Shown: positions 3,350-20,690 of the stretch, in pieces
Position numbering within the stretch: position 1 is the first letter of the stretch
Layout of the letters: every line of letters starts with the position of its first letter
Assembly: GCF_016613475.2 (NCBI RefSeq)
Contig: NZ_CP071517.1
Location: 434,001-498,000 of the forward strand
DNA from: Lysobacter arenosi
Lineage (GTDB): Bacteria; Pseudomonadota; Gammaproteobacteria; Xanthomonadales; Xanthomonadaceae
Length of the DNA: 64,000 nucleotides
Direction: 5' to 3'
Made by a program: the position numbers and the translations under genes
Notes under the pieces: generated by a model
Seen by the model: only the letters and a program-made list of their open reading frames with translations
Databases searched by the model: none
What the model was told of the DNA's origin: nothing

Positions 3350-3426
3350 TGGCGGCCCCGACACGATTCGAACGTGCGACCTGTCCCTTAGGAGGGGACC
3401 GCTCTATCCAACTGAGCTACGGGGCC
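3350..3426 (-). tRNA. tRNA-Arg (anticodon CCT)
   Basis: On the minus strand a 77-nt cloverleaf can be drawn. The acceptor stem GGCCCCG/CGGGGCC is followed by discriminator G and an encoded CCA (3350-3352). The D arm is GCTC..GAGC, the anticodon loop is CTCCTAA with anticodon CCT (reads AGG), and the T-loop is TTCGAAT. It sits in the gap between the symporter gene and the aldehyde dehydrogenase. No integrase or duplicated tRNA end is seen nearby. Confidence 0.97.
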
Positions 3427-5016: not shown

Positions 5017-5787
5017 TCAGGGCAGGCGCCAGTCCTTCCGAACGCGCCCGTACTCCGCCACCGGCAGCAGCACGAACACCGGCTTGCGCTTGGGATCCAG
5101 CCACGCCAGCAACTGCTGCATCACCGGCTCGGCCATCGCCGTGCAGCCGGCCGTCGTCTCGCCCGGCGCCTTCCACAGGTGGGCGAAGATGCAGCTGCCG
5201 GTGCCACTGCGGTTGTCGGGGTTGTGCTCGATGACGAAGCCGAGTTTGTAGCGCTGGTCGCCGCCGGCATGCAGGTCGCGACGCATCGGCTCGGTCGAGC
5301 CGGCGACGGCGTCGGCGCCGACCTGGCGCGCATCGACGATGCGGTTGTACAGCGGCGATGCGTTGACGTCGATGCAGAAGTCCGAGGCCGTCATCGCCTG
5401 GTAAGGCCAGGCGCCGGCGGCGCTGTCGGCGTAGCCGAACGCAGTGCCGATGCGGAACACGCCGGCCGGTGCGCGGCCATCACCTTCGACCTTTTGCGGT
5501 TCGCCGGACTGGGGCGCGTGCAGGCCGACACCCCAGCCCGAACCACTGCGTCCGACCGTGATCGGCGCCGCCTCTCCCAGCGCACGCCAACCGCTGCCAT
5601 CGCGCTCGTAGCGCTGCAGCGTGCCGGTGTTGGCGGTCCAGTCCGCAGTCGTCACCACGACCATCTGCTGGGCATCGTCCCATGGCTGCGTGGGCTGCCT
5701 GCTTTTCATGCCTGCGCAGCCGGCAAGCACCAGGGCGACGATGCAGAGCAGGGCATGTGCGGTGTATCGGCGCATCGGATCGGTCAT
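5017..5787 (-). CDS. L,D-transpeptidase-fold (YkuD) lipoprotein
   Basis: A 256-residue protein with a lipoprotein signal (VLAGC, Cys24) and a YkuD-type L,D-transpeptidase domain over roughly residues 75-245. The catalytic region has His203 in CIFAHLW and Cys215 in TTAGCTAM, a variant of the usual SHGC motif. Such enzymes form or exchange 3-3 or lipoprotein crosslinks, or trim peptidoglycan tetrapeptides, in the periplasm. It lies 1 nt downstream of the RpiR-type regulator and ends the minus arm of the murein-peptide locus, so it is likely under the same control. The start at 5787 directly follows the regulator stop; a second ATG at 5775 is an equally good N terminus. The exact reaction is not predictable from the variant motif. 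Confidence 0.8.
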   Translation of the reverse strand: MTDPMRRYTAHALLCIVALVLAGCAGMKSRQPTQPWDDAQQMVVVTTADWTANTGTLQRYERDGSGWRALGEAAPITVGRSGSGWGVGLHAPQSGEPQKVEGDGRAPAGVFRIGTAFGYADSAAGAWPYQAMTASDFCIDVNASPLYNRIVDARQVGADAVAGSTEPMRRDLHAGGDQRYKLGFVIEHNPDNRSGTGSCIFAHLWKAPGETTAGCTAMAEPVMQQLLAWLDPKRKPVFVLLPVAEYGRVRKDWRLP

Positions 5788-5788
5788 C

Positions 5789-6637
5789 TCAGCTGTCCAG
5801 CAGGTCCTGCATGCGTTCGAAATTGAAATCGAGCTGGCTGCGGCGGTCGTCGTTGCCGTCGCACAGCAGGATGAAGATGAGGTCGAGCAAGTGCTGCAAT
5901 GCGCACTGGTACAGCAGCGGCTCGATGTGCCGGCGCTCGTCGTGGGCGGATACCAATAGCGCCGCGTCGGCATGTGCTCGCAGCGGATTGGGCGTGTGCC
6001 GGCTGACCGAGATCACCTTGCCGAAACGCTCGCGGAACAGGCGGCTGATCTGGCACAGCGCCGGCTGCCTGCCGTGCTCGGAAAACACCAGCAGCACGTC
6101 ACCGGGAGCGGCGCTGGAGACGCCGGCCTGCATCAGGATCGCATCGACGTAGTGGACGGTGAGGATGCCGAGCATCGACAGCCGCGTGGCGAACGCGCGT
6201 GCCGGGATGCCGTCCTCGCCCAGGCCGATGATGAAGACCTTGCCCGCCTGCTGGATCGCCGCGGCGATTGCGTCAATGCGTTCGGGCGGATTGATCAGTC
6301 GCGTGGCGGCTTCGGCTTGCGCCTTGAGGTGCCACAGGTCTTCGGCGAGGGCGGCGTGCGGATCGTCGTTGCGCACTTCGCTGGCGACATGCTCGTCGCC
6401 GCCGTCGCCACGCGCGACCGCCTGGCCGATCGAGTACTTGAGGTCCGGATAACCTTTGAAGCCAAGCTTCTGGCTGAACTTGACCACGCTCGACTGGCTG
6501 ATGCCGAGCGCATTGGCCAGCTGCTGCGACGAGTAGTCGCGCAGCAGGTGGGCGTTGTCGAGCAGGAAGTCGGCGATGCGGCGTTCGATGGCGGACATCT
6601 GGTCGCGTTCGGAGCGGATCTTCAGCAGGGGCGACAT
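5789..6637 (-). CDS. MurR/RpiR-family transcriptional regulator (HTH plus SIS)
   Basis: A 282-residue regulator. Residues about 1-77 form an RpiR helix-turn-helix (LANALGISQSSVVKFSQKLGF). Residues about 120-250 form a SIS sugar-phosphate-binding domain (VFIIGLGEDGIPARAFATRL, FSEHGRQPAL). The family includes MurR, which senses MurNAc-6-phosphate and represses cell-wall sugar recycling genes. Here it lies inside the minus arm, 32 nt after the dipeptide epimerase and 1 nt before the L,D-transpeptidase gene. It is the only regulator in the locus and the natural candidate to control the divergent promoters near 10.5 kb. The effector is unknown; a cell-wall amino-sugar phosphate is an inference from family and context. 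Confidence 0.9.
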   Translation of the reverse strand: MSPLLKIRSERDQMSAIERRIADFLLDNAHLLRDYSSQQLANALGISQSSVVKFSQKLGFKGYPDLKYSIGQAVARGDGGDEHVASEVRNDDPHAALAEDLWHLKAQAEAATRLINPPERIDAIAAAIQQAGKVFIIGLGEDGIPARAFATRLSMLGILTVHYVDAILMQAGVSSAAPGDVLLVFSEHGRQPALCQISRLFRERFGKVISVSRHTPNPLRAHADAALLVSAHDERRHIEPLLYQCALQHLLDLIFILLCDGNDDRRSQLDFNFERMQDLLDS

Positions 6638-6669
6638 GGCAGATCCTCGTCAGGCCTCATGATGCCTCG

Positions 6670-7767
6670 TCACGCTTCAATGGGAACCAGCCCGCGGATC
6701 TCGCGGATGCCCAGGCCGGGCGCATCGGTGACCGAGATCTCGGACTCGTTGAAGTTGACGCCGCCGTCGACCGGGTTGAATGCGCACAGCGACGGTCCGT
6801 CGAGGTCGACCTTGGTGATCGCGCTCGACTTGGCCACGGCCAGGTGGACCGCGGCGGCGACGCTGATGCTGCTCTCGAGCATGCAGCCGATCATGCATTC
6901 CACGCCGTAGAGTTCGGCGATGTCGGCAATGCGGATCGCGTTGGACAGGCCGCCGGTCTTCATCAGCTTGATGTTGATGATGTCGGCCGCGCGCATGCGG
7001 ATCAGGTCGATGACCTCGGTCGGGCCGAACACGCTCTCGTCGGCCATGATCGGCGTGTGGACGCGCTCGGTGACGTACTTCATGCCGTCCAGGTCCTTGG
7101 CCTTGACCGGCTGCTCGACCAGCTCCAGGCGCACGCCGGCGTCCTCGAGCATGCTGATCGCGTACACCGCCTGCTTGGCGCTCCAGCCCTGGTTGGCGTC
7201 AAGGCGCAGCAGGGCGCGGCCCTCGACCGCGGCATAGATCGCCTTGACCCGCTCGATGTCGACGCCGATGTCCTTGCCGACCTTGATCTTCAGCGACTCG
7301 AAGCCGCGGTCCACCGCGCTGATCGAGTCGGCCACCATCTTGTCGATGTAGTCGACGCTGATGGTGATGTCGGTGGTGATCACCGGGTCGCCGCCGCCAA
7401 GCATCTTGTAAAGCGGCACGCCGTAGAGCTGGCCAAACAGGTCGTAGACCGCGATCTCGACAGCGGCCTTGGCGCTGGTGTTCTTCTCCAGCGCCGACTG
7501 GATCAGCGCGGTGATGTGGTTGAGGTTGGCGATTTCCTGGCCGATCACGCGCGGGGCGATGAACTTGCGGATCGCCTCGATGATCGAGCCATGGGTGTCG
7601 CCGGTGATGACTGCGGTCGCCGGTGCCTCGCCGTAGCCGACCTGGCCGGTGTCGGTGTGCACCGAGACGACGATGTCCTCCACCGCCTCGACCGTGCGCA
7701 GGGCGGTCTTGAAGGGCGTTTTCAACGGGACGCGGAGCATGCCGAAGCGGATATCGGTGATTTTCAT
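6670..7767 (-). CDS. Dipeptide epimerase (L-Ala-D/L-Glu epimerase type)
   Basis: A 365-residue cytoplasmic enolase-superfamily enzyme of the muconate-lactonising subgroup. Active-site residues are all present: Lys160 and Lys162 (KIKVG), metal ligands Asp190 (LDANQGW), Glu218 (LVEQP) and Asp243 (MADES), and Lys268 (INIKLMKTGG). The 321-DLD-323 motif is the DxD pair that binds the dipeptide alpha-amino group in L-Ala-D/L-Glu epimerases such as B. subtilis YkfB, and all these positions are close to those numbered in that enzyme. The reaction converts L-Ala-D-Glu from murein to L-Ala-L-Glu, which ordinary peptidases can cleave. There is no signal peptide. It is placed after an NlpC/P60 gene, as in ykf-type murein peptide operons. 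Confidence 0.9.
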   Translation of the reverse strand: MKITDIRFGMLRVPLKTPFKTALRTVEAVEDIVVSVHTDTGQVGYGEAPATAVITGDTHGSIIEAIRKFIAPRVIGQEIANLNHITALIQSALEKNTSAKAAVEIAVYDLFGQLYGVPLYKMLGGGDPVITTDITISVDYIDKMVADSISAVDRGFESLKIKVGKDIGVDIERVKAIYAAVEGRALLRLDANQGWSAKQAVYAISMLEDAGVRLELVEQPVKAKDLDGMKYVTERVHTPIMADESVFGPTEVIDLIRMRAADIINIKLMKTGGLSNAIRIADIAELYGVECMIGCMLESSISVAAAVHLAVAKSSAITKVDLDGPSLCAFNPVDGGVNFNESEISVTDAPGLGIREIRGLVPIEA

Positions 7768-7824
7768 TGGTTCACGGATGCTGGATTGGGGAGGGGAGGC
7801 GCGTGCTTTCGCATCGTGCTTCCA

Positions 7825-9243
7825 TCATGGACGGATGCGCTGGATGTTGGTCATGCGGTCGACATAGGTCTGCTTGCCGTTGAACAGCAGCGGCGTCAGC
7901 GGCGACACGGTCACGCCGTTGGTCTTCGCGCGGACGGTCTTGCCGTCGGCGCCGGCGAAACTCAGGCCGGTGGTGTCGTGGATCACGTAGGGCTCGCCGT
8001 CGAGCTGGCCGATCACCATCATCACGTGGCCGGGGATGTAGACCAGGTCGCCGACCTGCAGTTCGCGGGCGATCTGCAATCGGCGCTCACGGCTGTCCTT
8101 GTCGCTAAGGGCGATGCGGTTGAGCGCGGGGCTGACCGCCTGGTCGCTGGTGTTGCGCGGCAGCTCCACGCCCATGCTGCGATAGATCTCGGAAACGAAG
8201 CCGCTGCAGTCGCGACCGTTGTAGCTGTGGCCCCAGCCGTAGCGCTCACCGAGGAACTTGAAGCCCTGTTCGATCAGGTTGCGCCCGCTCAGCGGCAGGT
8301 AATGGTCCTGGCTGGGCTCGCGTCGCGGCAGCAGGGCCGGTGCGAAGCGCAGGCTGCCATCGTCGTTGCGCACTGGCAGCTCGATCACGTGCGAGGTGTA
8401 GCCATCCTGGCCGTTGACCGCCTTGCCGACCGGCCAGTCCGCCAGCACCGGCACGCGCAAGCCCATGTCGAGCTGCAGCTCCGACACGCCCGGCTCCTCC
8501 TGGGTGAAGACGGTGGCGGCGCGTGCGCCGGTGACGACGCGATAAGGCGCCTTGCGGCCGTAGCCAAGCACCTGCTCCTGGCTGCCAAGCGCGACGAAGC
8601 GCTTCTCCACCCACGCGGCGTAGCGCGGGTTCACCACGAACCACCATTGGCCGTCGCGGCTTTCATGCGCGACCACCACCGGATCGCCCGGGAACAGCGC
8701 GCTTTCCTGGAAGCGGTCGATGTCGTGGTCGTCGTCCGAGGAGAAAACGCGCAGCGAGGTCGGGAAGGTGCGCAGGGCGGCGCGGTGCACGACCAGGCCA
8801 TAGCGCGTGTCCTGGCGTTCGGGGACCGCACCGAGGTTGATCGAGTCGACCACCTCGTCAAGCGTTGCCTTCGCCACCGGCTTGCCGCGTTCGTCGAACA
8901 GCGCCTTCGACGGCCGCCGCGACAGCGCCTCGATCCAACCGCTGACCTGGGCGCGATCGAGCGTGTCCTGCAGCGCCGCCAGGTCATGGATGCTCTTGTC
9001 GAGCTGATGCAGGCGCGTGTTCTGCGCGGCGATCGCATCGCTGTCGAGGATGACCCGGTCCGGGTCGGCGAGCTGCCTGACCCAGAAGGCGGGGTCGAGC
9101 TGGGCATGGTCGACACCAATCACACCGGTGCTGGCGGGAACGGTCCATGCCCGCTCGCGTGCCGCCAATGGCTGCAGTGCGGTCCCGGCCAGGCACAAGG
9201 CGAGGCTGAGGGCGAGGGCCGGGGTGGTCAGTGTCAGGCGCAT
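7825..9243 (-). CDS. Secreted NlpC/P60 endopeptidase with SH3 domains (gamma-D-Glu-diamino acid endopeptidase type)
   Basis: A 472-residue exported cysteine peptidase. A signal peptide (about residues 1-28) is followed by an N-terminal stabilising domain. SH3-like domains (about 150-320) come next, then the NlpC/P60 domain (about 325-440) with Cys346 in GRDCSGF, His406 in PGHVMM and a third polar residue at His422. This architecture matches periplasmic or secreted enzymes such as YkfC that cut gamma-D-glutamyl-mDAP bonds in murein peptides, releasing L-Ala-D-Glu, the substrate of the adjacent epimerase. The ATG at 9243 precedes a clear signal sequence; longer upstream frames add Arg-rich non-coding-like sequence. 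It lies 40 nt after the DUF819 gene and 57 nt before the epimerase. Confidence 0.88.
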   Translation of the reverse strand: MRLTLTTPALALSLALCLAGTALQPLAARERAWTVPASTGVIGVDHAQLDPAFWVRQLADPDRVILDSDAIAAQNTRLHQLDKSIHDLAALQDTLDRAQVSGWIEALSRRPSKALFDERGKPVAKATLDEVVDSINLGAVPERQDTRYGLVVHRAALRTFPTSLRVFSSDDDHDIDRFQESALFPGDPVVVAHESRDGQWWFVVNPRYAAWVEKRFVALGSQEQVLGYGRKAPYRVVTGARAATVFTQEEPGVSELQLDMGLRVPVLADWPVGKAVNGQDGYTSHVIELPVRNDDGSLRFAPALLPRREPSQDHYLPLSGRNLIEQGFKFLGERYGWGHSYNGRDCSGFVSEIYRSMGVELPRNTSDQAVSPALNRIALSDKDSRERRLQIARELQVGDLVYIPGHVMMVIGQLDGEPYVIHDTTGLSFAGADGKTVRAKTNGVTVSPLTPLLFNGKQTYVDRMTNIQRIRP

Positions 9244-9283
9244 GGTTCGGGCTCTAGTGAGTCTTTTCCGGGAGTGCCAGCGA

Positions 9284-10450
9284 TCAGCTCGCGATGCTTG
9301 CAACAGGTGCCATGCCGGACAGTATCCCGGCCATCGCCAATCCAATACCGGTGCCCAGCACCAGGCCCAGCATCGCCAGCAATACCGCCACCGGCACGAG
9401 CGCGCGGGCATAGGTCGCGGCCAATACCGGCGCGGTCGCCATGCCGCCGATCTGGGCGAGCGAGGAAATGCCGCACAGGTGCAGGTCGAAGCGGAACAGC
9501 TTCGCGGCCAGCAGCAACAGAGCGACATGCACGATCAACACGGTGAATCCGACGACGACGAACAACGGTGCAGTGTCCAGGCCCTGGAAGTTGCTTTGCG
9601 ATGCGAGCACCGCCACCAGGCAGGCCAGCATGGCACTGGCCAGCGGCGCCGGCACCGGTGAATGGGCGAGGGCGGTGCGGGCGAGTACCAGGCCGACGAC
9701 GGTGGCGATCAGGACCGTCCACGCGGTGGTGGTCAGGAAACCGCCGACCGGGAGCAGCGCCGCCAACCAGGACGAGAGGTTGCCAACCAGCAGCGCCAGG
9801 CCCAGCCACAGCAGCACGCTGCCCGGACCGGCTTCGCCGGTTGTCCTGGGCTCCACCTGCGGCAACGGCGCACGCGCATCGGCGCCGGTCCAATGGTTGA
9901 AGGCCGGGGCGAAGCGGTTGATCGAGAACAACACGATCACCCACACCGAATAGCAGACTGCGTCGGCCAGCAGCACCGACGGCAACAGATTGTCGGGAAG
10001 CCCGATCGACTGTTTCACCGCGACCAGGTTGGCCGAGCCGCCGGTCCAGGTGGCGCTCAGTGCCGCCAGCATCTTCCAGCCGTCGGCGGGCAGGGCATTA
10101 CGGAAGATCAGGTAGGCAATGACTATGGCCGCCAGGATGCTGAGCATCGCGCAGGCGAACACTGCCAGCATGCGCGGCCCCAGTTTGACGATCGCGCGCA
10201 GGTCGCAGCCGACCATCAGCAGAAACAGCAGGGCCGGCAGCAGCTGGCCGGTGAGCGAATGTTGCGCCGCAGCGATCTCCGGCGTGGCCCGCCAAAGACC
10301 GGCCACCGCCAGGGCGGTCACGAACAGATAAGTAAGGACGATCGGCGGCAGCACCGAGAACAGGCGCCAGCCGTACCGCTTCTCGAGGGACGGAAACAGG
10401 CCCGCCGAAACCAGCAAAACCGCGGCGTAAGGCCAGACCGTTTCGATCAT
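9284..10450 (-). CDS. DUF819 (YjcL-like) integral membrane protein, candidate transporter
   Basis: A 388-residue polytopic membrane protein with about ten hydrophobic segments. Features typical of DUF819 are WTGGSANLVAVKQSIGLP and the tail segment IGGMATAPVLAATYA. The biochemical role of this family is not established. Its position as first gene of a run encoding a murein endopeptidase and an L-Ala-D-Glu epimerase suggests that it moves a cell-wall-derived dipeptide or amino acid across the inner membrane. That function is inference. The ATG at 10450 follows an AGGGGA ribosome site about 10 nt upstream; a GTG 24 nt further upstream is less likely. A minus-strand promoter-like pair lies at 10506-10533. 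Confidence 0.82.
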   Translation of the reverse strand: MIETVWPYAAVLLVSAGLFPSLEKRYGWRLFSVLPPIVLTYLFVTALAVAGLWRATPEIAAAQHSLTGQLLPALLFLLMVGCDLRAIVKLGPRMLAVFACAMLSILAAIVIAYLIFRNALPADGWKMLAALSATWTGGSANLVAVKQSIGLPDNLLPSVLLADAVCYSVWVIVLFSINRFAPAFNHWTGADARAPLPQVEPRTTGEAGPGSVLLWLGLALLVGNLSSWLAALLPVGGFLTTTAWTVLIATVVGLVLARTALAHSPVPAPLASAMLACLVAVLASQSNFQGLDTAPLFVVVGFTVLIVHVALLLLAAKLFRFDLHLCGISSLAQIGGMATAPVLAATYARALVPVAVLLAMLGLVLGTGIGLAMAGILSGMAPVASIAS

Positions 10451-10505
10451 CTTGATTTGTCCCCTCTGGGCCACCGACGGAAGGCGGTGGCCGACTGGGT
10501 CAGAA

Positions 10506-10536
10506 TAGATACTTCATTTCTTGTTTTAGTCAAGAA
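10506..10536 (-). promoter_or_regulatory. Minus-strand promoter with overlapping inverted repeat (candidate RpiR operator)
   Basis: On the minus strand, TTGACT (10528-10533) and TATCTA (10506-10511) are separated by 16 nt, a plausible sigma-70 promoter for the DUF819 gene. The perfect inverted repeat TTCTTG-N7-CAAGAA (10518-10536) overlaps the -35 and the spacer, a good place for a repressor. The stretch is AT-rich in a GC-rich genome. A TTGACC (10544-10549) on the plus strand may serve the divergent transglutaminase gene, though its -10 is weak. Binding by the locus RpiR regulator is inferred. Confidence 0.5.
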
Positions 10537-10603
10537 TAAATTATTGACCGGGTACTCCACTCATGTTACACAGTCGTGAAACGCCACCCCGGGTCGACTG
10601 CAC

Positions 10604-12124
10604 GTGGACAGTCTTTCGCCTTCGCTCGAACTGAAGACCCCTCGGAAGCGCAAGCTGCGCGCGCTGGCTGTCTCCGTCCTGTGGCTTTCGCTGATGACTA
10701 CCGCGGCCCTGGCTGGCGGAGCCGGCGACACTGTCGATGAAGTCACCGCGAGCATCGATGCCGGTCATTTCAAGCAGGCCAACTCCGCGATCGACAGCGC
10801 GCTGGCGCAACCCGGATTGAGTGCCGATGCACGCCAGGCCCTGCAATTCCAGCGCGAACGCATGCGCCGCATCCGCCTGGACTTTCCGATCACCGAGCCC
10901 GAGGCGAAAGCCAAGCTGCGCGAGCTGATCCCGGACATGACCGATGCCGAGTTCGCAGGTTGGAAGGCCTCGAACCAGCTCGAGCACATGGTGATCGACG
11001 GCGTTCCTTATTACTTCAGCCGCTCGGTCTCCAATCTGTTCCGCGTCAGCCCGGAGGCTACGGCCAGGCGGGCAACGCCGGCGACGCGCAACGACGGGCC
11101 GATGGAATCGGCCAACGCCTACCATGACGAAGCCCTGGCGCAGGCCCGGGCGACGGGCAAGAGCAGCGTCGCCCCGCGCCGTGTCCGCGTCACCCAGGCG
11201 ATCATCGTCAACGCCGATGCTGTTCCGGCAGGGGAAGTGGTTCGCGCCTGGATTCCGTTCCCGCGCGCGATCGCCGGCCAGCAGGAAAACATCGAGCTGA
11301 TCTCCAGCGCACCGGCCAGGCACGTCACTGCGCCGGAATCGACGATGCAGCGCACCGTCTACATGGAGCAGCCGGCGGTCAAGGCAACGCCGACGAAGTT
11401 CTCGGTCACCTATGAGCTGACCATCTTCGGCCAGGTCCACCAGATCGATCCGGCCAAGGTCGTCACTGCAGGCAACAGCCCCGCGGACAACAGCGCGGAG
11501 CTGGCGCCGTACCTGGAAGAGCGCCCGCCGCACATCGTCTTCAGCGACGACATCCGTGCGTTCTCGAAGAAGGTGGTCGGCGACGAGAAGAATCCGTACC
11601 GCATCGCCCAGAAGCTCTATTCGGCGGTCGACAGCATTCCGTGGGGCGGCGCGCGCGAGTACTCCACGATCACCAACATCAGCCATTACGCCCTGCATTC
11701 CGACCATGCCGACTGCGGTCAGCAGACGCTGCTGCTGATGACGCTGCTGCGCCTCAACGGCATCCCGGCACGCTGGCAGTCGGGCATGGTCTATTCCGAC
11801 GGCAAGTACGACAACCTGCACGATTGGGGGTTCATGTACCTGGCGCCGTACGGCTGGGTGCCGATGGACGTCACCACCGGCCAGTTCAAGGGCGCCAGCG
11901 ATCCGGGCGTCGAGTGGTACTACCTCGGCGGGCTGGATGCCTACCGCATCGCATTCAACGACGACTACGGCACCGACCTGGTGCCGCGCAAGCAGCATTT
12001 CCGATCGGAAACGGTGGACTCACAACGCGGCGAAGTGGAGTGGCAAGGGGGAAACCTCTACTTCGACCAGTGGGACTACCAGTTCGAGGCGAAGGTGATG
12101 CCTCTGGAAACGGCTGCCAGGTAA
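10604..12124 (+). CDS. Exported transglutaminase-like cysteine protease-fold protein
   Basis: A 506-residue protein starting with GTG and a signal peptide (hydrophobic residues about 20-37, cleavage near AALAGGA). The C-terminal half is a transglutaminase core with the full triad: Cys371 in HADCGQQ, His406 in NLHDWG and Asp422 in PMDVTTG. The N-terminal 200 residues are helical and unassigned. Such domains in bacteria mostly act as peptidases or amidases rather than crosslinkers. It is divergent from the DUF819 gene and 65 nt upstream of the TonB-dependent receptor, so it may process a ligand at the outer membrane or in the periplasm. Substrate is unknown; a peptide from murein is an inference from context. 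Confidence 0.82.
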   Translation: MDSLSPSLELKTPRKRKLRALAVSVLWLSLMTTAALAGGAGDTVDEVTASIDAGHFKQANSAIDSALAQPGLSADARQALQFQRERMRRIRLDFPITEPEAKAKLRELIPDMTDAEFAGWKASNQLEHMVIDGVPYYFSRSVSNLFRVSPEATARRATPATRNDGPMESANAYHDEALAQARATGKSSVAPRRVRVTQAIIVNADAVPAGEVVRAWIPFPRAIAGQQENIELISSAPARHVTAPESTMQRTVYMEQPAVKATPTKFSVTYELTIFGQVHQIDPAKVVTAGNSPADNSAELAPYLEERPPHIVFSDDIRAFSKKVVGDEKNPYRIAQKLYSAVDSIPWGGAREYSTITNISHYALHSDHADCGQQTLLLMTLLRLNGIPARWQSGMVYSDGKYDNLHDWGFMYLAPYGWVPMDVTTGQFKGASDPGVEWYYLGGLDAYRIAFNDDYGTDLVPRKQHFRSETVDSQRGEVEWQGGNLYFDQWDYQFEAKVMPLETAAR

Positions 12125-12189
12125 GTCCAGCAATCCGGGGCTTCAATTCCAGCTTCAAAACAAGACAAATCCAGTAAGGGGAGAGTGGG

Positions 12190-15189
12190 ATGAACGGCAA
12201 GGCACTTCGCAGGGCAACGCTGAGCATGGCGTTGGGAGCATGCATTGCAACGATGGTTCCGATGCTGGCATCGGCGCAGACGGTCAGCGGCGCGGTGGCG
12301 GGCAACGCCACGCAGGGCGACCAGATCACGGTGACCAACACCGAGACCGGCCTTTCGCGCACGACCACGGCCGATGCGAAGGGCAACTACCGTATCGCCC
12401 AGCTGCCGATCGGCAACTACTCGCTGCAGGTGATGCGCGATGGCCAGGCCATCGGGCAGGCAGTCGAGGTCACGGTCTCGATGGGCAGTTCGACCAACAT
12501 CAACCTCGGCGGAGACGGCGCCGTCAACCTGGCCTCGGTGCAGGTCGTGGGCTCGCGCGTGGTGCCGCTGGTCGACGTGACGTCGACCGAATCGGCGATG
12601 ACGCTGACGGCGGCCGACGTCGACCGTCTGCCGGTCGACCGTGACCTGGCTTCGGTGGCACTGCTGGCCCCGGGCGTGACCAAGGGCGAATCGTCGTTCG
12701 GCGGCATCTCCTTCGGCGGTTCGTCGGTTGCCGAGAACTCGTTCTACATCAACGGCCTCAACGTCACCGACTTCTACAACCGCAATGGCTTCTCCGAGGC
12801 GCCGTTCGCGTTCTACAAGGAATTCCAGGTCAAGACCGGCGGCTACTCGGTCGAGTTCGGCCGTACCACCGGTGGTGTCATCAACACCGTCGCCAAGTCC
12901 GGTACCAACGAATTCGAGTCGGGCGCCGAGCTGGTGTTCGAGCCGCGTGCATGGCAGTCGAAGGCCAACGATCGCTACTTCAACGGCGAGCGCTACCTGA
13001 CCTTCAGCCAGGACGACTATTCCGACACCACGCTCGACCTGTGGGCGTCGGGTCCGCTGATCAAGGACCGCCTGTTCTTCTTCGCGTTGTACGAGCTGCG
13101 TGACTACGAGCCGACCAACACCAACGACGAAGGCACCAACCTCACCAAGAACAACTCCAGCAACGGTTTCTGGGGCGGCACCCTCGACTGGTACGTCACC
13201 GACAACAACATCCTGAGCCTGATGGCGTTCTCCAACAAGAACGAGAACACCGGCGACGTCTATACCTACGATTACGACAACAACGAGATCGGCAACAAGA
13301 CCAACGAGATCTACAACGACACCGGTGGTGACAACTGGGCGCTGTCGTGGTCGTCGTACTTCACGTCCAACTTCTCGATGAAGGTGATGTACGGCGAGAA
13401 CCACCGCCAGTCGTTCAATCGTTCGCTGCTGGACCTGGAGTGCAACCGCGTGCAGACGGTCAGCTCGCGTCCGGCACCTCCGGGCGTGCAGCTGGGCTGC
13501 AGCACCAACTCGACGGTGTTCAACCGCGAAGACGTGCGCGAGCAGACCCGCGCCGACTTCGAGTGGTCGCTCGGTGACCACCTGCTGCGCTTCGGCGTCG
13601 ACCACGAGGTCAACACGTCCGACCACAAGCAGTACTACGCCGGTCCCGGCGCGCTGTTCTACAACGTCAACGCCGGCAGCCCGGGCAGCTCGATCCCGAA
13701 CCCGCCCGGTGGCGTGATTCCGCCGGGCTACACCGGCTATGTCCGCGCCCGCCGCAACGAGATCGCCGGCAACTTCGAGAGCACCAACACCGCGTTCTAC
13801 CTCGAGGACAACTGGTCGATCACCGACAACTTCCTGCTGAACCTGGGCATCCGCAACGAGTCCTTCGACAACAAGGACGGCGACGGAAAGTCCTACATCG
13901 AGATGGACGAGATGTGGGCGCCGCGCCTCGGCTTCGCCTGGGACATCAACGGCGACTCGACGATGAAGCTGTTCGGCAACGTCGGCCGTTACTTCCTGCC
14001 GGTGGCCAACGTCATCAACATCAAGCAGGCCGGTGGCCTGCTCGACCAGCGCACCTACTACGCGTTCGACGGCTGGGACGTGCGCAGCCTCAACGGCGTG
14101 CAGTACGCCGTGCCGCGCCTCGGACCGCAGATCGGCACCGTCGATGTCTCGCAGGGTGATGGCACCGTCGGCGACCTGCGTTCGGAAGTCGATCGCGACC
14201 TCGACTCGGTCTACCAGGACGAGGCGATCCTCGGCTTCCAGCAGATGCTGAACGAGAAGTGGTCGTGGGGCGTTCGCGGCATCTACCGCAAGCTCACCAA
14301 CGCGATCGACGACATGGAGATCAGTGCCACCGGCCAGTGCGGCGAAGACGGCTATATCGGCTGGGTGATGGCCAATCCGGGCGAGAAGGTCACCGTCTGG
14401 GGCGATACCGACTGCAACGGCAACATGGGCTGGGTCACCGTCGATACCGCGAAGGAAGGCTGGGCGCTCTATGACGAGGACGGCAACTACCAGGGCCAGC
14501 GAGGCTGGGTGAAGCCCAAGCGCACCTACAAGGCGTTGGAGTTCCAGCTCGATCGCGCCTGGGACGACAAGTGGGCGTTGAACATGTCCTACACCTGGTC
14601 CAAGAGCGAGGGCAACGCCGAGGGTCCGGTCAACTCCGACACCAACTTCTCCGACACCGGCCGTACCGAGAACTTCGATGATCCGTGGGTCAACTACGGC
14701 GGCTACGGCCCGCTGGCGAATGACCGCCGCCACCAGCTGAAGGCGCGCGGCACCTATGCCTTCAACGACAACTGGCAGGTCGGCGGTACGCTCGATGCCA
14801 GCTCCGGCGGCCCGATCACCGGCTTCGGCACCGGCAACCCGTTCGATGCCGCCAAGTACCACAGCTACTACATCTGCGTGGCCCAGTGCGACAGCGCCAC
14901 GCCGGTGTACGAGCACTCCGCCCGCGGTGCCTACGGCGAGATGCCGTGGACCTGGGAGGTGGGTGCGAGCGTGACCTACCTGCAGTCGTTCGGCGACTCC
15001 CGCCTGCGCGTCAAGTTCGCGGTCTTCAACCTGTTCAACCAGCAGAAGACCGTGCGCGTGGACCAGGAGCTGCAGCCCAGCGTGGGCATGGCCACGCCGA
15101 CCGAGCCGGAACTCAACGAGTTCTTCGGTGTCGGCTACGGCTTCCAAGCACCGCGTTACGCCCAGCTGTCGGTCACCGTCGACTTCTGA
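12190..15189 (+). CDS. Oar-like TonB-dependent outer-membrane receptor
   Basis: A 999-residue outer-membrane protein. It has a signal peptide (cleavage near ASAQT, residue 30), a carboxypeptidase-regulatory-like beta domain (about 31-108), a plug (about 115-240; VSSxx-type motif replaced by LASVQVVGSR, then NGLNVTDFYNRNG) and a beta-barrel ending in the aromatic TVDF. This Oar-like layout is common in xanthomonads and myxobacteria, often several copies per genome. It is preceded by a strong ribosome site (AAGGGGAG) and followed by a clear terminator. Lying between an exported peptidase-like protein and cytoplasmic diaminopimelate and D-Ala-D-Ala enzymes, it is a candidate importer for murein peptides; the ligand is not shown by sequence. 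Confidence 0.9.
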   Translation: MNGKALRRATLSMALGACIATMVPMLASAQTVSGAVAGNATQGDQITVTNTETGLSRTTTADAKGNYRIAQLPIGNYSLQVMRDGQAIGQAVEVTVSMGSSTNINLGGDGAVNLASVQVVGSRVVPLVDVTSTESAMTLTAADVDRLPVDRDLASVALLAPGVTKGESSFGGISFGGSSVAENSFYINGLNVTDFYNRNGFSEAPFAFYKEFQVKTGGYSVEFGRTTGGVINTVAKSGTNEFESGAELVFEPRAWQSKANDRYFNGERYLTFSQDDYSDTTLDLWASGPLIKDRLFFFALYELRDYEPTNTNDEGTNLTKNNSSNGFWGGTLDWYVTDNNILSLMAFSNKNENTGDVYTYDYDNNEIGNKTNEIYNDTGGDNWALSWSSYFTSNFSMKVMYGENHRQSFNRSLLDLECNRVQTVSSRPAPPGVQLGCSTNSTVFNREDVREQTRADFEWSLGDHLLRFGVDHEVNTSDHKQYYAGPGALFYNVNAGSPGSSIPNPPGGVIPPGYTGYVRARRNEIAGNFESTNTAFYLEDNWSITDNFLLNLGIRNESFDNKDGDGKSYIEMDEMWAPRLGFAWDINGDSTMKLFGNVGRYFLPVANVINIKQAGGLLDQRTYYAFDGWDVRSLNGVQYAVPRLGPQIGTVDVSQGDGTVGDLRSEVDRDLDSVYQDEAILGFQQMLNEKWSWGVRGIYRKLTNAIDDMEISATGQCGEDGYIGWVMANPGEKVTVWGDTDCNGNMGWVTVDTAKEGWALYDEDGNYQGQRGWVKPKRTYKALEFQLDRAWDDKWALNMSYTWSKSEGNAEGPVNSDTNFSDTGRTENFDDPWVNYGGYGPLANDRRHQLKARGTYAFNDNWQVGGTLDASSGGPITGFGTGNPFDAAKYHSYYICVAQCDSATPVYEHSARGAYGEMPWTWEVGASVTYLQSFGDSRLRVKFAVFNLFNQQKTVRVDQELQPSVGMATPTEPELNEFFGVGYGFQAPRYAQLSVTVDF

Positions 15190-15199
15190 TGGCCCTCAA

Positions 15200-15236
15200 G
15201 GGCGGCCCGCCGCGAGCGGGCCGCCCTTCTTTTTTT
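15200..15236 (+). terminator. Rho-independent terminator after the receptor gene
   Basis: An 11-bp perfect GC stem (15200-15210 with 15216-15226), loop CGCGA, followed by a run of ten bases that is nine T and one C. It ends transcription 10 nt after the receptor stop. The next gene's ATG follows only 12 nt later, so the downstream genes probably depend on readthrough or a promoter inside this region. Confidence 0.93.
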
Positions 15237-15248
15237 CCAGGAAGCAGC

Positions 15249-16571
15249 ATGCAGGTCATTGCGAAGGCGCAGCAGGCGGAGGGTGCCGTGGGGCAGGCGG
15301 GTGCATCGAGGGGTATTGGACGTGAAGGTCCCTCGCTGTTCGATGGCGTGGACCTGCATGCGCTCGCCGCGCAGGTATCGACTCCGTGTCATGCCTATTC
15401 GGCCAATGCGATCCGCGAGCGCATCGCCGGGCTGCAGTCGGCCTTCCAGGGGCTGGACCACCGCATCTGCTATGCGGTCAAGGCCAATTCCAACGTTGCC
15501 ATCCTGCAATTGATGGCGCACCACGGTGTCGGCGCCGACATCGTTTCACTGGGCGAGCTCAATCGCGCCCTGCTCGCCGGCATCCCTGCCGAGCACATCG
15601 TCTTCTCCGGAGTCGGCAAGACCACCGAGGAGATCGCCTCGGCACTGGCTGTCGGCGTGTGGCGATTCAATGTCGAGTCGCTGGACGAACTACAGCTTCT
15701 GCAGGAAGTGGCGCAGCGCCACGGCGTCTGCGCGCGCGCTGCCGCGCGCATCAATCCCGACGTCGATGCGCGCACGCACGAGAAGATCTCCACCGGCAAG
15801 TCCGAAAACAAGTTCGGCGTCTCCATCGACGAAGCCCGTCGCTGGTTCGCCAATGCCGGCTCGATGAGCAACGTCCTGCTCGACGGCCTGCATGCCCATA
15901 TCGGTTCGCAGATCCTGGAACTGGAGCCGTTCCGCGAGGCGCTGACCCGGGTGGAGGCGTTCCGTCGCGAGCTGGTCGATGCGGGCCATCCGATCGCCAG
16001 CGTCGACATCGGCGGCGGCCTGGGCGTGTGCTACCGCAAGGGCGTCGATCACCCGATTCCGGCCGCGGAGTACGCGGGGCTGGTACGCGTGGTGTTCGCG
16101 GAATTCCAGGGCACGCTGGTGCTCGAGCCGGGACGCTACCTCGTCGCCGAGGCCGGCATCCTGTTGACGCGGGTGATCCGGGTCAAGCCGGGCGTGGACC
16201 GCAGCTTCCTCGTGGTCGATGCGGCGATGAACGATCTGCTGCGCCCGTCGCTGTACGAGGCCTGGCACGAGATCGTGCCGCTGGTCGGTGGCGACCGCGA
16301 GCCGGCGCGTTACGACGTGGTCGGGCCGGTCTGCGAGACCGGCGACACTTTCGCCCGCGGCCGAGCGATGGCGCGCTGCGAGGCCGGTGACCTGTTGTCG
16401 ATCGGCAGCACCGGCGCGTACGGTGCATCGATGGCCTCGACCTACAACTCGCGTCCGCTGGCTGCCGAGGTCCTGCTCGATGACGGCCGCTATGCGGTAA
16501 TCCGGCGCCGGCAGACGATGGCTGAGATGATCGCCGGGGAACAACTGCCACAGGTGTGGAATGAGACTTGA
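15249..16571 (+). CDS. lysA: Diaminopimelate decarboxylase (stand-alone LysA)
   Basis: A 440-residue fold-III PLP decarboxylase. The PLP lysine is Lys78 in YAVKANSN. Other motifs are HAHIGSQI, the phosphate-binding GGGLG, LEPGRYLVAEAG, CETGD (the cysteine reaches the partner active site) and the late YNSRP. These fit meso-diaminopimelate decarboxylase, which makes L-lysine and CO2. The first 30 residues are a non-conserved extension; the ATG has an AGGAAG site in front. It overlaps the next gene by 11 nt. Xanthomonads are known to carry a fused aspartokinase-LysA for lysine synthesis, so a free LysA beside murein peptidases may serve breakdown of salvaged diaminopimelate. Ornithine or arginine decarboxylase is less likely. 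Confidence 0.85.
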   Translation: MQVIAKAQQAEGAVGQAGASRGIGREGPSLFDGVDLHALAAQVSTPCHAYSANAIRERIAGLQSAFQGLDHRICYAVKANSNVAILQLMAHHGVGADIVSLGELNRALLAGIPAEHIVFSGVGKTTEEIASALAVGVWRFNVESLDELQLLQEVAQRHGVCARAAARINPDVDARTHEKISTGKSENKFGVSIDEARRWFANAGSMSNVLLDGLHAHIGSQILELEPFREALTRVEAFRRELVDAGHPIASVDIGGGLGVCYRKGVDHPIPAAEYAGLVRVVFAEFQGTLVLEPGRYLVAEAGILLTRVIRVKPGVDRSFLVVDAAMNDLLRPSLYEAWHEIVPLVGGDREPARYDVVGPVCETGDTFARGRAMARCEAGDLLSIGSTGAYGASMASTYNSRPLAAEVLLDDGRYAVIRRRQTMAEMIAGEQLPQVWNET

Positions 16572-18126
16572 GATGACCGCCATGCGCTGCGGGTTGCTTG
16601 CCCTGCTTCTTACCGCGGCCTCGGGCGTGCAGGCGGAGCCGGGGCGCCACGCCAAGGCTGACGTCGACGCGGTGTTCGACCAGGTCGTCGCCCGCTACAG
16701 GCTGCCCGGCCTCGCGCTGGGCATCGTCGAAGACGGCAAGGTCGTTTACTCGCGCACGGCCGGCGAACTGGTCGAAGGCGAAGGCCGGAAGATCGACTCG
16801 GCAACCCTGTTCAAGGTCGCCTCCAACACCAAGTCGATGACCACCGCCACGCTGGCGCGGCTGGTCGATGCCGGCAAGCTGCGCTGGGACGACCCGGTGG
16901 TGCGCTGGTTGCCGGATTTCCGCATGTTCGACCCCTGGGTCGGACAGCAGATGCAGGTGCGCGACCTGCTGATCCACAACAGCGGCCTGCGTGCCGGTGC
17001 CGGCGACCTGATGCTGTGGCCGGAGCCCAACACCTTCACCCGTGCCGACATCATCCACGGCCTGGCGTACCTGAAACCGCAGCGCAGCTTCCGCGCCGGT
17101 TACGACTACGACAACCTGCTCTACATCGTGGCAGGTGAGGTCGCCGCCGCCGCTGGCGGCGCACCGTACGAGCAACTGGTCCGTCGCGAAGTGTTCGAAC
17201 CGCTGGGCATGCAGCGCTGCCAGGTCGGTCAGTGGCGCCGGGACGTGGTCGGCAACGTTGCCCAGCCGCACATGCGCCAGGGCGAGCGCAACATCCCGGT
17301 GCGCAGCGATGGCGACGTGATCGCCGCGACCACCATGGACCCGGCCGGCGGCGTGCGTTGCAGCCTCGACGACATGCTGACCTGGATCGGCGCGTGGCTG
17401 AAGCCGACCGGCACGGACGCGAACTGGCTGTCTCGCGAGCAGCGCGAAGCGCTGTGGGCCCCACAGATGCCGATGCCGCTGTCGCGGCGCATGCGCGAGT
17501 GGGACGACAGCCATTTCTCCGCGTACGGCTACGGCTGGCGCCTGGCCGATGTCGATGGCACGTTCAAGGTCTTGCACACCGGCACGCTGATGGGGATGTA
17601 CTCGATGGTGACGCTGCTGCCCGACAAGGGCGTGGGCTTCGTCATCCTGATCAACGGTGAAGGTGAAGACGCACGCACGGTACTAGGGCAGGTGCTGGTC
17701 AAGCTCTACACGCGCCCTGATCCGAGCCTGACGGTTGCCCATTACGCCGGGCTGCTGGAGCAGGAGGATGCCAAGCGTCCGGCGACAGAAAAGGCACCCG
17801 ACACGTCGAAGCGGAACAAGGTCACGGCCAAGGACCTGGCGCCGCACCTGGGCGTCTATCGCGATCCGTGGTTCGGCGAAGTCTCGCTGTGCCGCGATGG
17901 CGACTCGGTGCGCCTGCGCGCCAGAAAGTCGCCGATGCTGACCGGCATCGTGCAGCGCGCCGGCAAGCGCTGGCTGGTCAACTGGGACGACGACAGTGTC
18001 GACGCCGAAGCCTGGCTGGACTTCCCGCAGGCCAGGCAGATGCGGATGGCCAAGGTCGACCCGCAGGCGGACTTCAGCTGCGACTATGAAGACCTGGCAT
18101 TCACGTGGGAGCATGGCTGCGAATGA
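16561..18126 (+). CDS. Exported serine hydrolase, class C beta-lactamase/DD-peptidase fold
   Basis: A 521-residue protein with a short signal peptide (cleavage near VQAEP). The beta-lactamase/penicillin-binding fold shows Ser88-N-T-Lys91, the Tyr183-D-Asn185 motif, and a C-terminal lipocalin-like domain (about 400-515). Enzymes with this layout include D-aminopeptidases, DD-carboxypeptidases and esterases; a role in antibiotic resistance is not implied. The start is ambiguous: ATG at 16561 overlaps the lysA stop, and ATGs at 16573 and 16582 are also possible. Its stop is fused (ATGA) to the start of the VanX-like gene, so the two are coupled. Cleaving D-amino-acid bonds of murein peptides is inferred. 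Confidence 0.82.
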   Translation: MRLEMTAMRCGLLALLLTAASGVQAEPGRHAKADVDAVFDQVVARYRLPGLALGIVEDGKVVYSRTAGELVEGEGRKIDSATLFKVASNTKSMTTATLARLVDAGKLRWDDPVVRWLPDFRMFDPWVGQQMQVRDLLIHNSGLRAGAGDLMLWPEPNTFTRADIIHGLAYLKPQRSFRAGYDYDNLLYIVAGEVAAAAGGAPYEQLVRREVFEPLGMQRCQVGQWRRDVVGNVAQPHMRQGERNIPVRSDGDVIAATTMDPAGGVRCSLDDMLTWIGAWLKPTGTDANWLSREQREALWAPQMPMPLSRRMREWDDSHFSAYGYGWRLADVDGTFKVLHTGTLMGMYSMVTLLPDKGVGFVILINGEGEDARTVLGQVLVKLYTRPDPSLTVAHYAGLLEQEDAKRPATEKAPDTSKRNKVTAKDLAPHLGVYRDPWFGEVSLCRDGDSVRLRARKSPMLTGIVQRAGKRWLVNWDDDSVDAEAWLDFPQARQMRMAKVDPQADFSCDYEDLAFTWEHGCE

Positions 18127-18839
18127 AGTGCGGTGCGTCGGCGATGATGCTGGTGACGGCGCTGGCCGTCGCCGCCTGCGCCTCGACGCCACCGCTGGTC
18201 GTATCTGAAGCCACCACGCCCGAATCTGCCGGCCTGGTCGACATCCGCGCACTGGTGCCGGACATCGACCTGGACATCCGCTACGCCGGCAGCGACAACT
18301 TCGTCGGAACCCGTGTCGATGGCTACGGTGCGGCCCGATGCTATCTGCTGGCCGACGCTGCCAAGGCGCTGCAGCAGGCCGAGTTGGATCTCCGTCGCGA
18401 GGGCATGCGCCTGCGCCTTTACGACTGCTATCGCCCGGCGCGCGCGGTGCGGCACTTCGTTGACTGGGCCGGTGACCTGGGTGACCAGCGCACCAAGCCG
18501 GAGTACTACCCGCGCCTGGACAAGCGCCAATTGCTCGGCGACTACATCTCGCCGACTTCCGGACACAGTCGCGGCGCGACGCTGGACCTCACGTTGATGC
18601 AGTGCCGGGCAGATGGCAGCGCGTGCGTGCCGCTCGACATGGGCACGCCGTTCGACTTCTTCGACACGCGCGCCAACACCGACTCGACGCAGGTGGATGC
18701 CCGCCAGCGCGAAAACCGCCAGCGCCTGCGGTCAGCGATGGAGCGTGCCGGGTTCCGCAACTACCCGATGGAGTGGTGGCACTTCACCCTCAACCCCGAG
18801 CCGGCGCCGAAGGTCTTCTTCGACGTTCCCATCGAGTGA
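18123..18839 (+). CDS. D-Ala-D-Ala dipeptidase, VanX/DdpX type (lipoprotein)
   Basis: A 238-residue zinc dipeptidase. The lipoprotein signal ends at VAAC (Cys19). The VanX signature is complete: catalytic Arg in YDCYRP (residue 104), zinc ligands His148 and Asp155 in SGHSRGATLD, catalytic Glu217 and zinc His220 in MEWWH. The family hydrolyses free D-Ala-D-Ala; here it would act in the periplasm. No vanH or D-Ala-D-lactate ligase gene is nearby, so this is nutrient use or murein turnover, not glycopeptide resistance. It starts inside the stop of the serine hydrolase gene and ends the plus arm, converging on the next serine hydrolase with only 7 nt between stops. Confidence 0.9.
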   Translation: MKCGASAMMLVTALAVAACASTPPLVVSEATTPESAGLVDIRALVPDIDLDIRYAGSDNFVGTRVDGYGAARCYLLADAAKALQQAELDLRREGMRLRLYDCYRPARAVRHFVDWAGDLGDQRTKPEYYPRLDKRQLLGDYISPTSGHSRGATLDLTLMQCRADGSACVPLDMGTPFDFFDTRANTDSTQVDARQRENRQRLRSAMERAGFRNYPMEWWHFTLNPEPAPKVFFDVPIE

Positions 18840-18846
18840 AGGCGCC

Positions 18847-19914
18847 TCAGCGCGTCATCGCCAACGCGGCGATCTGCCTGGCCAGGCCATAAGGCTCCGG
18901 GTCATCGCGGTTGGTCAGCACGACCACGGTCAGGTGGCGCTGCGGATAGCGCACGATCACGTTGCGGAAGCCGATCGTCTCGCCCGAATGCCATAGCGTC
19001 TCGCCGGTGATGCGCCAGCCGTAGCCGTAACGCACGTCGGGATCGTCGGTTGCGGTGGCCGGAGTGAATGCCCGGGCCAGCCATTCGCTGCGCAGCAGCC
19101 GCTCGTCATAGAGCGCAGCGTCCCACTTCGCCAGGTCAGCGATGGAGGAATAGATGCCGCCGTCGCCAAGTACGGCACTGGTGCTGCTCTGATCGGTCCG
19201 CTTCCAGCGCCCGTGCTCGAAACTGTAGCCGTAGGTGCGCCTGGCAACCTCGGAAATCCCGGATTCGTAGGCGACCGTGCCCGTCATGCCAAGCGGCGTG
19301 AAGATGCGGTCGTGCAGGAAGGTCGCGTAACGCTGGCCCGATGCGCGCTCGACGATCAGCGCCAGCAGTGCATAGCCGCTGTTGCTGTAACGATAGTCGC
19401 TGCCCGGCGCGAAATAGGTGCGGTCCTGCGAGGACAGCAGGCGCAGGACGTCGGCGTCGTGCACCTGCACTTCGCTGGCCGGGTCCATCACGTCCTCGTA
19501 ATCGATCAGCCCGGCGGTGTGCGTGAGCAGCTGGCGGATCGTGACCGCGTCGGCGGCTGCCGGCAGCTCCGGCAGCCAGCGCCGTGCGGGGTCGTCCAGA
19601 CGCAGGCGGCCATCCTGCGCGAGCAACAGGATTGCCGCCGCGGTGAACTGCTTGCTGACCGATGCCAGGCGGTAGTTGCTGTCCGGGTTTGCCGCGATGT
19701 TCGATTCGAAGTCGGCGAGACCGTAACTGCGCTGCACCAGGGCCTGGCCGTCGCGCAGCACCAGCACGGATGCTCCGGGCGCCTGGCCGTCGTAGTCGCG
19801 CATCAACGCGTCGATCCCTTCCTGGAGTGTCGTGTGCTGCCTCATGGTGTGGTCCCCGGTCGCGCAGCCAGCGAGAAGGAGGACGGATCCGAGTAGCCAG
19901 GCGGGTGTGCGCAT
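18847..19914 (-). CDS. Serine hydrolase lipoprotein, beta-lactamase/penicillin-binding fold
   Basis: A 355-residue lipoprotein (LLLAGC, Cys17) with a class C beta-lactamase fold: Ser85-V-S-Lys88, a YSN triad in YRYSNSGYALL, and HSGETIGFRN in place of KTG. It has the compact single-domain length of DD-peptidase or esterase-type family members. It converges with the VanX-like gene and is divergent from the ECF sigma gene, so it may not belong to the same transcript as the murein-peptide genes, although the activity class fits. The ATG at 19914 is chosen because it begins the lipoprotein signal; longer frames upstream are not signal-like. Confidence 0.82.
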   Translation of the reverse strand: MRTPAWLLGSVLLLAGCATGDHTMRQHTTLQEGIDALMRDYDGQAPGASVLVLRDGQALVQRSYGLADFESNIAANPDSNYRLASVSKQFTAAAILLLAQDGRLRLDDPARRWLPELPAAADAVTIRQLLTHTAGLIDYEDVMDPASEVQVHDADVLRLLSSQDRTYFAPGSDYRYSNSGYALLALIVERASGQRYATFLHDRIFTPLGMTGTVAYESGISEVARRTYGYSFEHGRWKRTDQSSTSAVLGDGGIYSSIADLAKWDAALYDERLLRSEWLARAFTPATATDDPDVRYGYGWRITGETLWHSGETIGFRNVIVRYPQRHLTVVVLTNRDDPEPYGLARQIAALAMTR

Positions 19915-20051
19915 CGGCAGATGGTAGCGGTACGACGACGCGAATGGGCGTTGGTGCGTGCTGCCGATGGCGAAGCCGGCCGGCTTGCGGCGCCGATGGC
20001 CCGGGACCACAATCGCCTGGTCTGATCGGATCTGGATTCGAGGCAATGCTC

Positions 20052-20675: not shown

Positions 20676-20690
20676 CGTGACAGCAACGTC

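Follow-up and report, generated by a model that had tools for sequence, protein, structure and literature searches.

A locus of about 12 genes, arranged in two tight divergent arms, lies in a 64-kb window (the whole stretch of DNA analysed here, positions 434,001 to 498,000 of contig NZ_CP071517.1) of the single-contig, 3.95-Mb genome of Lysobacter arenosi. The reading favoured here, with a probability of about 0.72, is a locus dedicated to the use of murein peptides and equipped with a switch of its own. The left arm encodes a DUF819 membrane carrier, an NlpC/P60 endopeptidase, a dipeptide epimerase, an RpiR-family regulator and a YkuD protein, and the right arm a transglutaminase-fold protein, an Oar-like TonB-dependent receptor, a diaminopimelate decarboxylase (LysA), a beta-lactamase-fold hydrolase and a VanX-like dipeptidase. 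What carries this reading was observed directly in the window and its relatives, namely the gene set, its order and conservation, the conserved catalytic residues and the co-occurrence of a promoter site with the regulator gene. The families that an initial annotation of the window had named were recovered by Pfam and NCBIfam profiles and by gene calls where it had placed them, in two tight divergent arms; every gene on its list is present, and the list had omitted an SDF symporter gene and a double site in the promoter shared by the arms.

The gene order was compared among relatives with the transglutaminase-fold protein as the marker, which matched 72 of 149 genomes of the family, 69 of them strongly (the weak matches in G033, G062 and G100 were not counted). 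A first set of 96 loci consisted of 66 from strong family relatives (68 in number, all but G041 and G114 included) and 30 from wider searches; 92 of them had enough left flank, and a gene was taken to be in place if it had a match of 38% identity over half the length and lay on the strand and side where it was expected. The exact order RpiR-epimerase-NlpC, divergent to the transglutaminase-fold gene, was found in 86 of the 92. On the left side, NlpC was in place in 87 loci, the epimerase in 88, RpiR in 87, YkuD in 75 and SDF in 53, and DUF819 occupied its slot in 32; on the other side, these numbers were 85 for Oar, 84 for the beta-lactamase-fold hydrolase, 72 for VanX and 30 for LysA. The convergent hydrolase at the far end of the right arm was found on the strand of that arm in 31 loci and in another orientation or on another side in 6, and both it and SDF are only loosely attached to the locus. 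Since the flanking genes were mostly not retained (the aldehyde dehydrogenase in 6 of 91 loci, the kinase in none of 90), the block is conserved against a changing background. Co-conservation of the genes in relatives, on which the initial annotation had staked its proposal beforehand, was thus found; the grouping is more than chance, and the order is widely conserved.

A second set of 80 loci was chosen by DUF819 and not by the marker. The transglutaminase-fold gene was present in 65 of these, with the order kept in all 65, and was missing at the limits used from the other 15, one of which (L171) is cut by a contig end. The two sets share species, so their counts are not additive (161 transglutaminase-fold entries correspond to 141 distinct sequences). 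At the level of the order, this gene was found in 41 of 200 genomes (E up to 1e-20) and, at that of the phylum, in 11 of 398 (E up to 1e-10), comprising eight from the same order, G632 and two weak matches. Genera with the locus include Lysobacter, Luteimonas, Rhodanobacter, Dyella, Luteibacter, Tahibacter and Steroidobacter, the last together with Povalibacter and Peristeroidobacter (L161-L164).

The locus also occurs in modified and reduced forms. Six short forms (L180, L207, L216, L223, L227 and L228) hold the DUF819, NlpC, epimerase and YkuD genes and a divergent VanX gene, without the RpiR and transglutaminase-fold genes and with Oar absent from its place (in L180, a 32% Oar relative lies on the opposite side); in L229, DUF819 stands alone. 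In L137, from another family, the NlpC, epimerase, transglutaminase-fold and YkuD genes share a strand and follow one another in a rearranged order; VanX and an RpiR relative of 34% identity lie nearby. An M19-dipeptidase-like gene is present in 10 of the 11 loci that have a gap before the hydrolase, L118 being the exception (three were tested with Pfam and all three confirmed), and an APC amino-acid permease takes the place of SDF in 10 of the first 59 loci (one cluster, of which one member was checked with Pfam). The transglutaminase-fold gene was also seen alone (L135, L136) and with YkuD and SDF (L117), in all three cases without NlpC and the epimerase.

The arms diverge from a promoter region that, in nearly every locus, contains a double site, made up of GAATA and, roughly 31 bp further along, AATAAATTATTGA. 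The parts of the predicted double operator are GAATA and AATAAATTATT. The second site follows the motif [G/C]-N-ATAA-N-TTATTGA, in which the sixth place may be either A or T. Counting the window, 155 of 156 loci have it (135 distinct sequences), the one miss being L142. GAATA lies upstream of it in 134 of the 135 distinct sequences, at 31 bp in 123 and at 30 bp in 11. The window contains one second site, seen on both strands, for 0.08 matches expected, and the site is the sole match in the genome, even with up to two mismatches. By eye, it overlaps a -35-like TTGACC, and a -10-like TTACAC follows at 10566-10571.

The presence of this site was tallied against that of the RpiR gene in 224 stretches, with species common to both sets counted twice. 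Among the stretches with parts of the locus, the site was found in 152 of 157 with RpiR versus 3 of 22 without it. Two of these three (L139 and L140) are cut off by a contig edge before RpiR would be reached, and the third (L144) seemingly belongs to the same 254,996-bp contig as L158, where an RpiR gene lies about 20 kb away. RpiR without the site was found in five stretches (L142, L143, L158, L157 and L267), of which the last two are seemingly one contig of 111,292 bp, without the right arm. Where neither RpiR nor parts of the locus were present, 2 of 45 stretches matched the site (the AT-rich L273 and L275), probably by chance. The site and the RpiR gene are linked by this co-occurrence, and binding of RpiR to the site is predicted. 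The locus is probably self-regulated and its arms probably co-regulated, the latter because they share a promoter site that is itself linked to RpiR. The regulator is a member of the wider RpiR family (PF01418); it stays below the equivalog cut-off for MurR, NF012026, with 87.8 versus 408 bits.

The signature of the YkfC subfamily, as defined in the available portion of PMC2954226, includes Asp256. The NlpC/P60 protein of the window has Asn at this position, and its identification as a YkfC-type recycling endopeptidase was ruled out on this ground. The same holds for most of its relatives: R-N-T was found in 167 of 172 and R-D-T in five (L131, L166, L173, L175 and L193), or, in terms of the 150 distinct sequences, Asn in 146 and Asp in four. 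The catalytic motifs are well kept (RDCS in 172 of 172, GHVM in 165 of 172). The closest solved relatives are DvLysin (3m1u, 94.6 bits) and PnpA (6sqx, 49.8 bits), and the protein has their layout, an SH3b1-type domain (SH3_6) before a catalytic Cys/His domain. The initial annotation was right about the family; the enzyme lacks the YkfC recycling signature and, judging from its sequence, is closest to the wall-cutting lysins. According to the available text of PMC7860986, PnpA converts tri-, tetra- and pentamuropeptides to dipeptides by cutting the bond between gamma-D-Glu and meso-diaminopimelate (mDAP), and it is active against the cell wall of two Vibrio species, with a proposed role against competitors or in nutrient gain. 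Since the NlpC/P60 protein is closest to DvLysin and PnpA, and PnpA cuts muropeptides, cutting may precede the release of free peptides.

The nearest solved relative of the epimerase is the B. subtilis L-Ala-D/L-Glu epimerase (1jpm; 338 bits, end-to-end alignment), and the residues that we take to be functional, Arg24, a catalytic Lys pair, the metal ligands and DxD, are kept. The DLD motif is present in 168 of 169 relatives. The initial annotation had proposed a DxD-type dipeptide epimerase, and the conservation of the L-Ala-D/L-Glu residues in this alignment agrees with it. It had also placed a LysA in the set; the protein belongs to the diaminopimelate decarboxylase family, lies above the TIGR01048 equivalog cut-off and has relatives with GPVCE..D in 72 of 72 cases, and it is a second copy in the genome, the other being part of a LysC-LysA fusion. 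The reading frame of this fusion changes in its LysA half after residue 513 (at about 98500 of the contig; about 1530-1540 in L095). In all 11 other genomes of the genus, the fusion match reaches the same residue within a single open frame, whose length of 878 to 931 residues is consistent with an intact fusion. The frame change is either an assembly error or a real loss and, if it is a loss, the LysA of the locus would be the intact copy.

The other enzymes have likewise retained their motifs. The VanX-like dipeptidase aligns to VanX (1r44) with 150 bits, HSRG and EWWH being kept, and the M15 zinc-site motifs were found in 128 (EWWH) and 117 (H.RG...D) of 129 relatives. In the YkuD protein, His199 and Cys211 are invariant (14 of 14 aligned), and the His...T.GC pattern is present in 149 of 149 relatives; in the transglutaminase-fold protein, Cys371, His406 and Asp422 are without exception among the 19 sequences aligned. 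The beta-lactamase-fold hydrolase has its SxxK motif in the form of SNSK, SNTK or SLTK in 132 of 146 relatives. A lipobox pattern was found in only part of the relatives of YkuD (54 of 149), VanX (27 of 129) and the convergent hydrolase (32 of 56), with start codons guessed, so lipid anchoring is not general. By eye, the epimerase, RpiR and LysA have no export signal at the N-terminus. The genome has its AmpG and Mpl genes at other places, so that ordinary recycling could proceed independently of the locus.

To our knowledge, no substrate has been assigned to DUF819. The family is grouped among the CPA/AT carriers, next to the ESS family of glutamate symporters (PMC8396727, available part), and in Neisseria an M15 peptidase gene is followed by one for DUF819 in 75 genomes (PMC12671195, available part). 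Aligned relatives of the window protein are 56-97% identical to it; the nearest from a named species, in a search that may omit the window's own species, is that of Lysobacter prati (95%, L152). A DUF819 match was found in 69 of the 69 genomes with a strong marker versus 40 of the 80 without (41 if a weak match in G050, which was excluded, is included). The idea that DUF819 is an obligatory gene of its slot was discarded in view of its frequency there. Two subtypes, that of the locus (21 genomes) and a second one (87 genomes), never occur together in the 149 genomes, for 12.3 co-occurrences expected if kinship is ignored; the limits used (300, 210 and 150 bits) were chosen after the scores were known, and a fragment in G114 was left unassigned. 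Both states were found in four genera (g1, g3, g16 and g27). Among 40 stretches chosen for the second subtype, four proved to be locus-type short forms and two to hold a third type; the remaining 34 contained no operator and no match to the other 14 window proteins. Neighbours of the second subtype include an S9 peptidase and CorA (L238) and CstA (L245), so any role for it in the pathway of the locus is conjectural. Its position elsewhere and without the site argues against the idea that it replaces the locus subtype.

Beyond the taxonomic order, DUF819 was matched in 24 genomes, of which 8 were examined, one stretch each. In L274, a low-scoring, locus-like DUF819 (196 bits) has M19, PF00144, epimerase and aminotransferase IV genes as neighbours and, in L280, another (226 bits) is near DgcN- and DgcA-like genes, whose scores are just below the equivalog cut-offs (393/400 and 454/480). 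The six other distant stretches (296-335 bits) contained no match to the murein enzymes of the window, and annotated neighbours were present in only two of these, L273 (Transglut_core2, DAHP synthase) and L279 (PALP). The third subtype, in L271 and L272, lies beside an epimerase of about 30% identity and a 30% PF00144-like hydrolase, and L271 also has an amidohydrolase and a TonB receptor. Taken with the placement of the family, the mutual exclusion of the two subtypes and the Neisseria gene pair, the neighbourhoods in L274 and L280 hint that the substrate of the locus subtype is related to D-Glu; this subtype is perhaps an importer of D-Glu or of a dipeptide.

As a murein-peptide utilisation locus, the system would work as follows. 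The exported NlpC/P60, YkuD, transglutaminase-fold, beta-lactamase-fold and D-Ala-D-Ala dipeptidase enzymes would cut wall peptides outside the inner membrane, and wall fragments would enter via the Oar-like receptor before or during this cutting. DUF819, together with the SDF or APC carrier, would import the small products; the cytoplasmic epimerase would then convert L-Ala-D-Glu to L-Ala-L-Glu and LysA, where present, would convert the released mDAP to lysine. RpiR would control both arms from the double site in the divergent promoter. In this scheme, we infer the substrates, the directions of transport and of regulation, and the source of the peptides in prey or debris. The murein-directed set of the initial annotation is co-conserved and, given the site and its link to RpiR, probably co-regulated; the completeness claimed for it does not extend equally to all species, since LysA and the in-slot DUF819 are optional. 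A bolder version, put forward here as a tentative proposal, is that the DUF819 locus subtype imports D-glutamate or L-Ala-D-Glu and that the locus does for peptidoglycan what a polysaccharide utilisation locus does for polysaccharides. It would then have a receptor, exported cutters, importers and an RpiR switch with a private operator, all of its own, and the transglutaminase-fold protein would be a murein amidase or isopeptidase of a new class.

Several observations weigh against murein-peptide utilisation. Regulators with a SIS domain usually sense sugar phosphates, and no sugar gene was seen at the locus. The NlpC/P60 protein does not have the signature for free peptides; to provide free L-Ala-D-Glu, an amidase would therefore be needed, and the locus has none. 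Equivalog cut-offs are missed by the epimerase (256/500 bits for NF041118, 113/343 for NF011708) and by the VanX-like protein (175.5 versus 320 for NF033115); the YkuD profile finds no solved relative at E up to 1, and that of the transglutaminase-fold protein none better than E = 0.0016. LysA and the in-slot DUF819 are minority features, and the short forms L209, L214, L217 and L219 lack the epimerase.

One alternative is that the enzymes act on the cell's own sacculus in turnover or stress remodelling, with RpiR sensing wall-derived signals and nutrition being secondary. The exported YkuD, NlpC and beta-lactamase-fold enzymes could indeed act on the own wall, as does EcgA, a relative of DvLysin and PnpA described as remodelling the wall of its own host (PMC7860986, available text). 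However, the carriers, the cytoplasmic epimerase and the sometimes present second LysA have a catabolic look, no more than 69 of the 149 family genomes have a strong match to the marker gene, and AmpG and Mpl are separate from the locus, all of which makes this explanation rather unlikely. It is still less likely that the locus serves the use of some other D-amino-acid or gamma-glutamyl peptide and not of murein. Specificity differs among the dipeptide epimerases of this superfamily, and the score of this one below the L-Ala-D/L-Glu equivalog cut-off would fit such a substrate, but a D-Ala-D-Ala dipeptidase family, a diaminopimelate decarboxylase, an endopeptidase of the gamma-D-Glu-DAP type and the Arg24 and DxD of the epimerase jointly indicate murein. 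That the genes are chance neighbours with no common role, as the loose attachment of the convergent hydrolase and SDF might suggest, is highly improbable: the order is kept while the flanks change, the shared promoter site is tied to RpiR, and the core genes are not scattered in relatives, the opposite being found in the loci laid out.

Features of the locus in the window, with the profile evidence for each (signal peptides and lipoprotein-like signals judged by eye)
Feature	Position	Strand	Evidence
SDF sodium:dicarboxylate/amino-acid symporter	3562..4821	-	PF00375, Pfam 262 bits
YkuD (L,D-transpeptidase fold) protein, lipoprotein-like signal	5017..5775	-	PF03734, 26.2 bits versus cut-off 23.4
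RpiR-family regulator with SIS domain	5789..6637	-	PF01418, PF01380
Dipeptide-epimerase-type enolase	6670..7767	-	PF13378
NlpC/P60 endopeptidase with SH3_6, signal peptide, DvLysin/PnpA-like	7825..9243	-	NlpC/P60 and SH3_6 domains
DUF819 membrane carrier, locus subtype	9284..10450	-	PF05684, 251 bits
Upstream half of predicted double operator, GAATAGATACTTC	10503..10515	.	GAATA conserved
Second predicted operator, GAATAAATTATTGACC	10534..10549	+	conserved motif in divergent promoter
Transglutaminase-fold protein, signal peptide	10604..12124	+	PF01841
Oar-like TonB-dependent outer-membrane receptor	12190..15189	+	PF25183, PF00593, PF07715, PF13620
LysA, diaminopimelate decarboxylase, second genome copy	15249..16571	+	TIGR01048, 469.6 bits versus cut-off 297.9
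Beta-lactamase-fold serine hydrolase with DUF3471, signal peptide	16561..18126	+	PF00144, 207 bits
M15 D-Ala-D-Ala dipeptidase (VanX-like), lipoprotein-like signal	18105..18839	+	PF01427, 148 bits versus 27
Convergent PF00144 hydrolase, lipoprotein-like signal	18847..19914	-	249 bits

Within the arms, gaps are at most 65 bp and two are overlaps (left arm: 13, 32, 57 and 40 bp; right arm: 65, 59, -11 and -22 bp), and the divergent region between the arms is 153 bp long. The SDF gene lies 198 bp beyond the left arm, beside that for YkuD, and a tRNA-Arg (CCT) at 3350-3426 adjoins this end of the locus. At the other end, an ECF sigma factor gene and then one for a Ser/Thr kinase with tetratricopeptide repeats (20048-23492) adjoin the locus and are not conserved with it. 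Two plus-strand open reading frames (9662-10579 and 15386-16390), which match no family and overlie DUF819 and LysA, were set aside.

Large amounts of wall peptide are set free by bacteria that lyse others and, as far as we know, its uptake by Gram-negative soil bacteria has been little described. The locus offers a direct handle on this question, with one predicted operator, one regulator and one carrier family, DUF819, that has no known substrate. A published account of such a locus was not found in the open-licence literature, among the matches listed, which is weak evidence of absence.

The closest known parallel is the ykf operon of Bacillus, composed of YkfA, YkfB and YkfC (PMC2954226, available part). 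Both systems have an L-Ala-D/L-Glu epimerase, that of the locus being closest to 1jpm, and an SH3b-NlpC/P60 endopeptidase, which in the locus is apparently exported and of the lysin type and not of the YkfC type. The predicted chemistry of the locus extends the ykf theme, and what sets the locus apart as a variant is the exported lysin-type enzyme, the receptor, the paired carriers and the private switch. Compared with ykf, the locus adds the outer-membrane receptor, the transglutaminase-fold and YkuD enzymes, the VanX-like dipeptidase, the DUF819 and SDF carriers, an optional LysA and its own RpiR and site. In E. coli, the steps of the MpaA-YcjG-PepD branch follow import into the cytoplasm, whereas the cutting enzymes of the locus are, from their predicted signals, exported. 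The likeness lies in the sequence of reactions, in which L-Ala-D-Glu-DAP is cut, epimerised and split (PMC2954226, available part). For DvLysin and PnpA (3m1u and 6sqx), the best solved relatives of the NlpC/P60 protein, the available text of PMC7860986 describes no uptake or breakdown locus. Finally, the DgcN-DgcA pathway for D-glutamate (PMC10845958, available part) resembles the locus through L280, where DUF819 is near DgcN- and DgcA-like genes, and differs from it in acting on free D-Glu.

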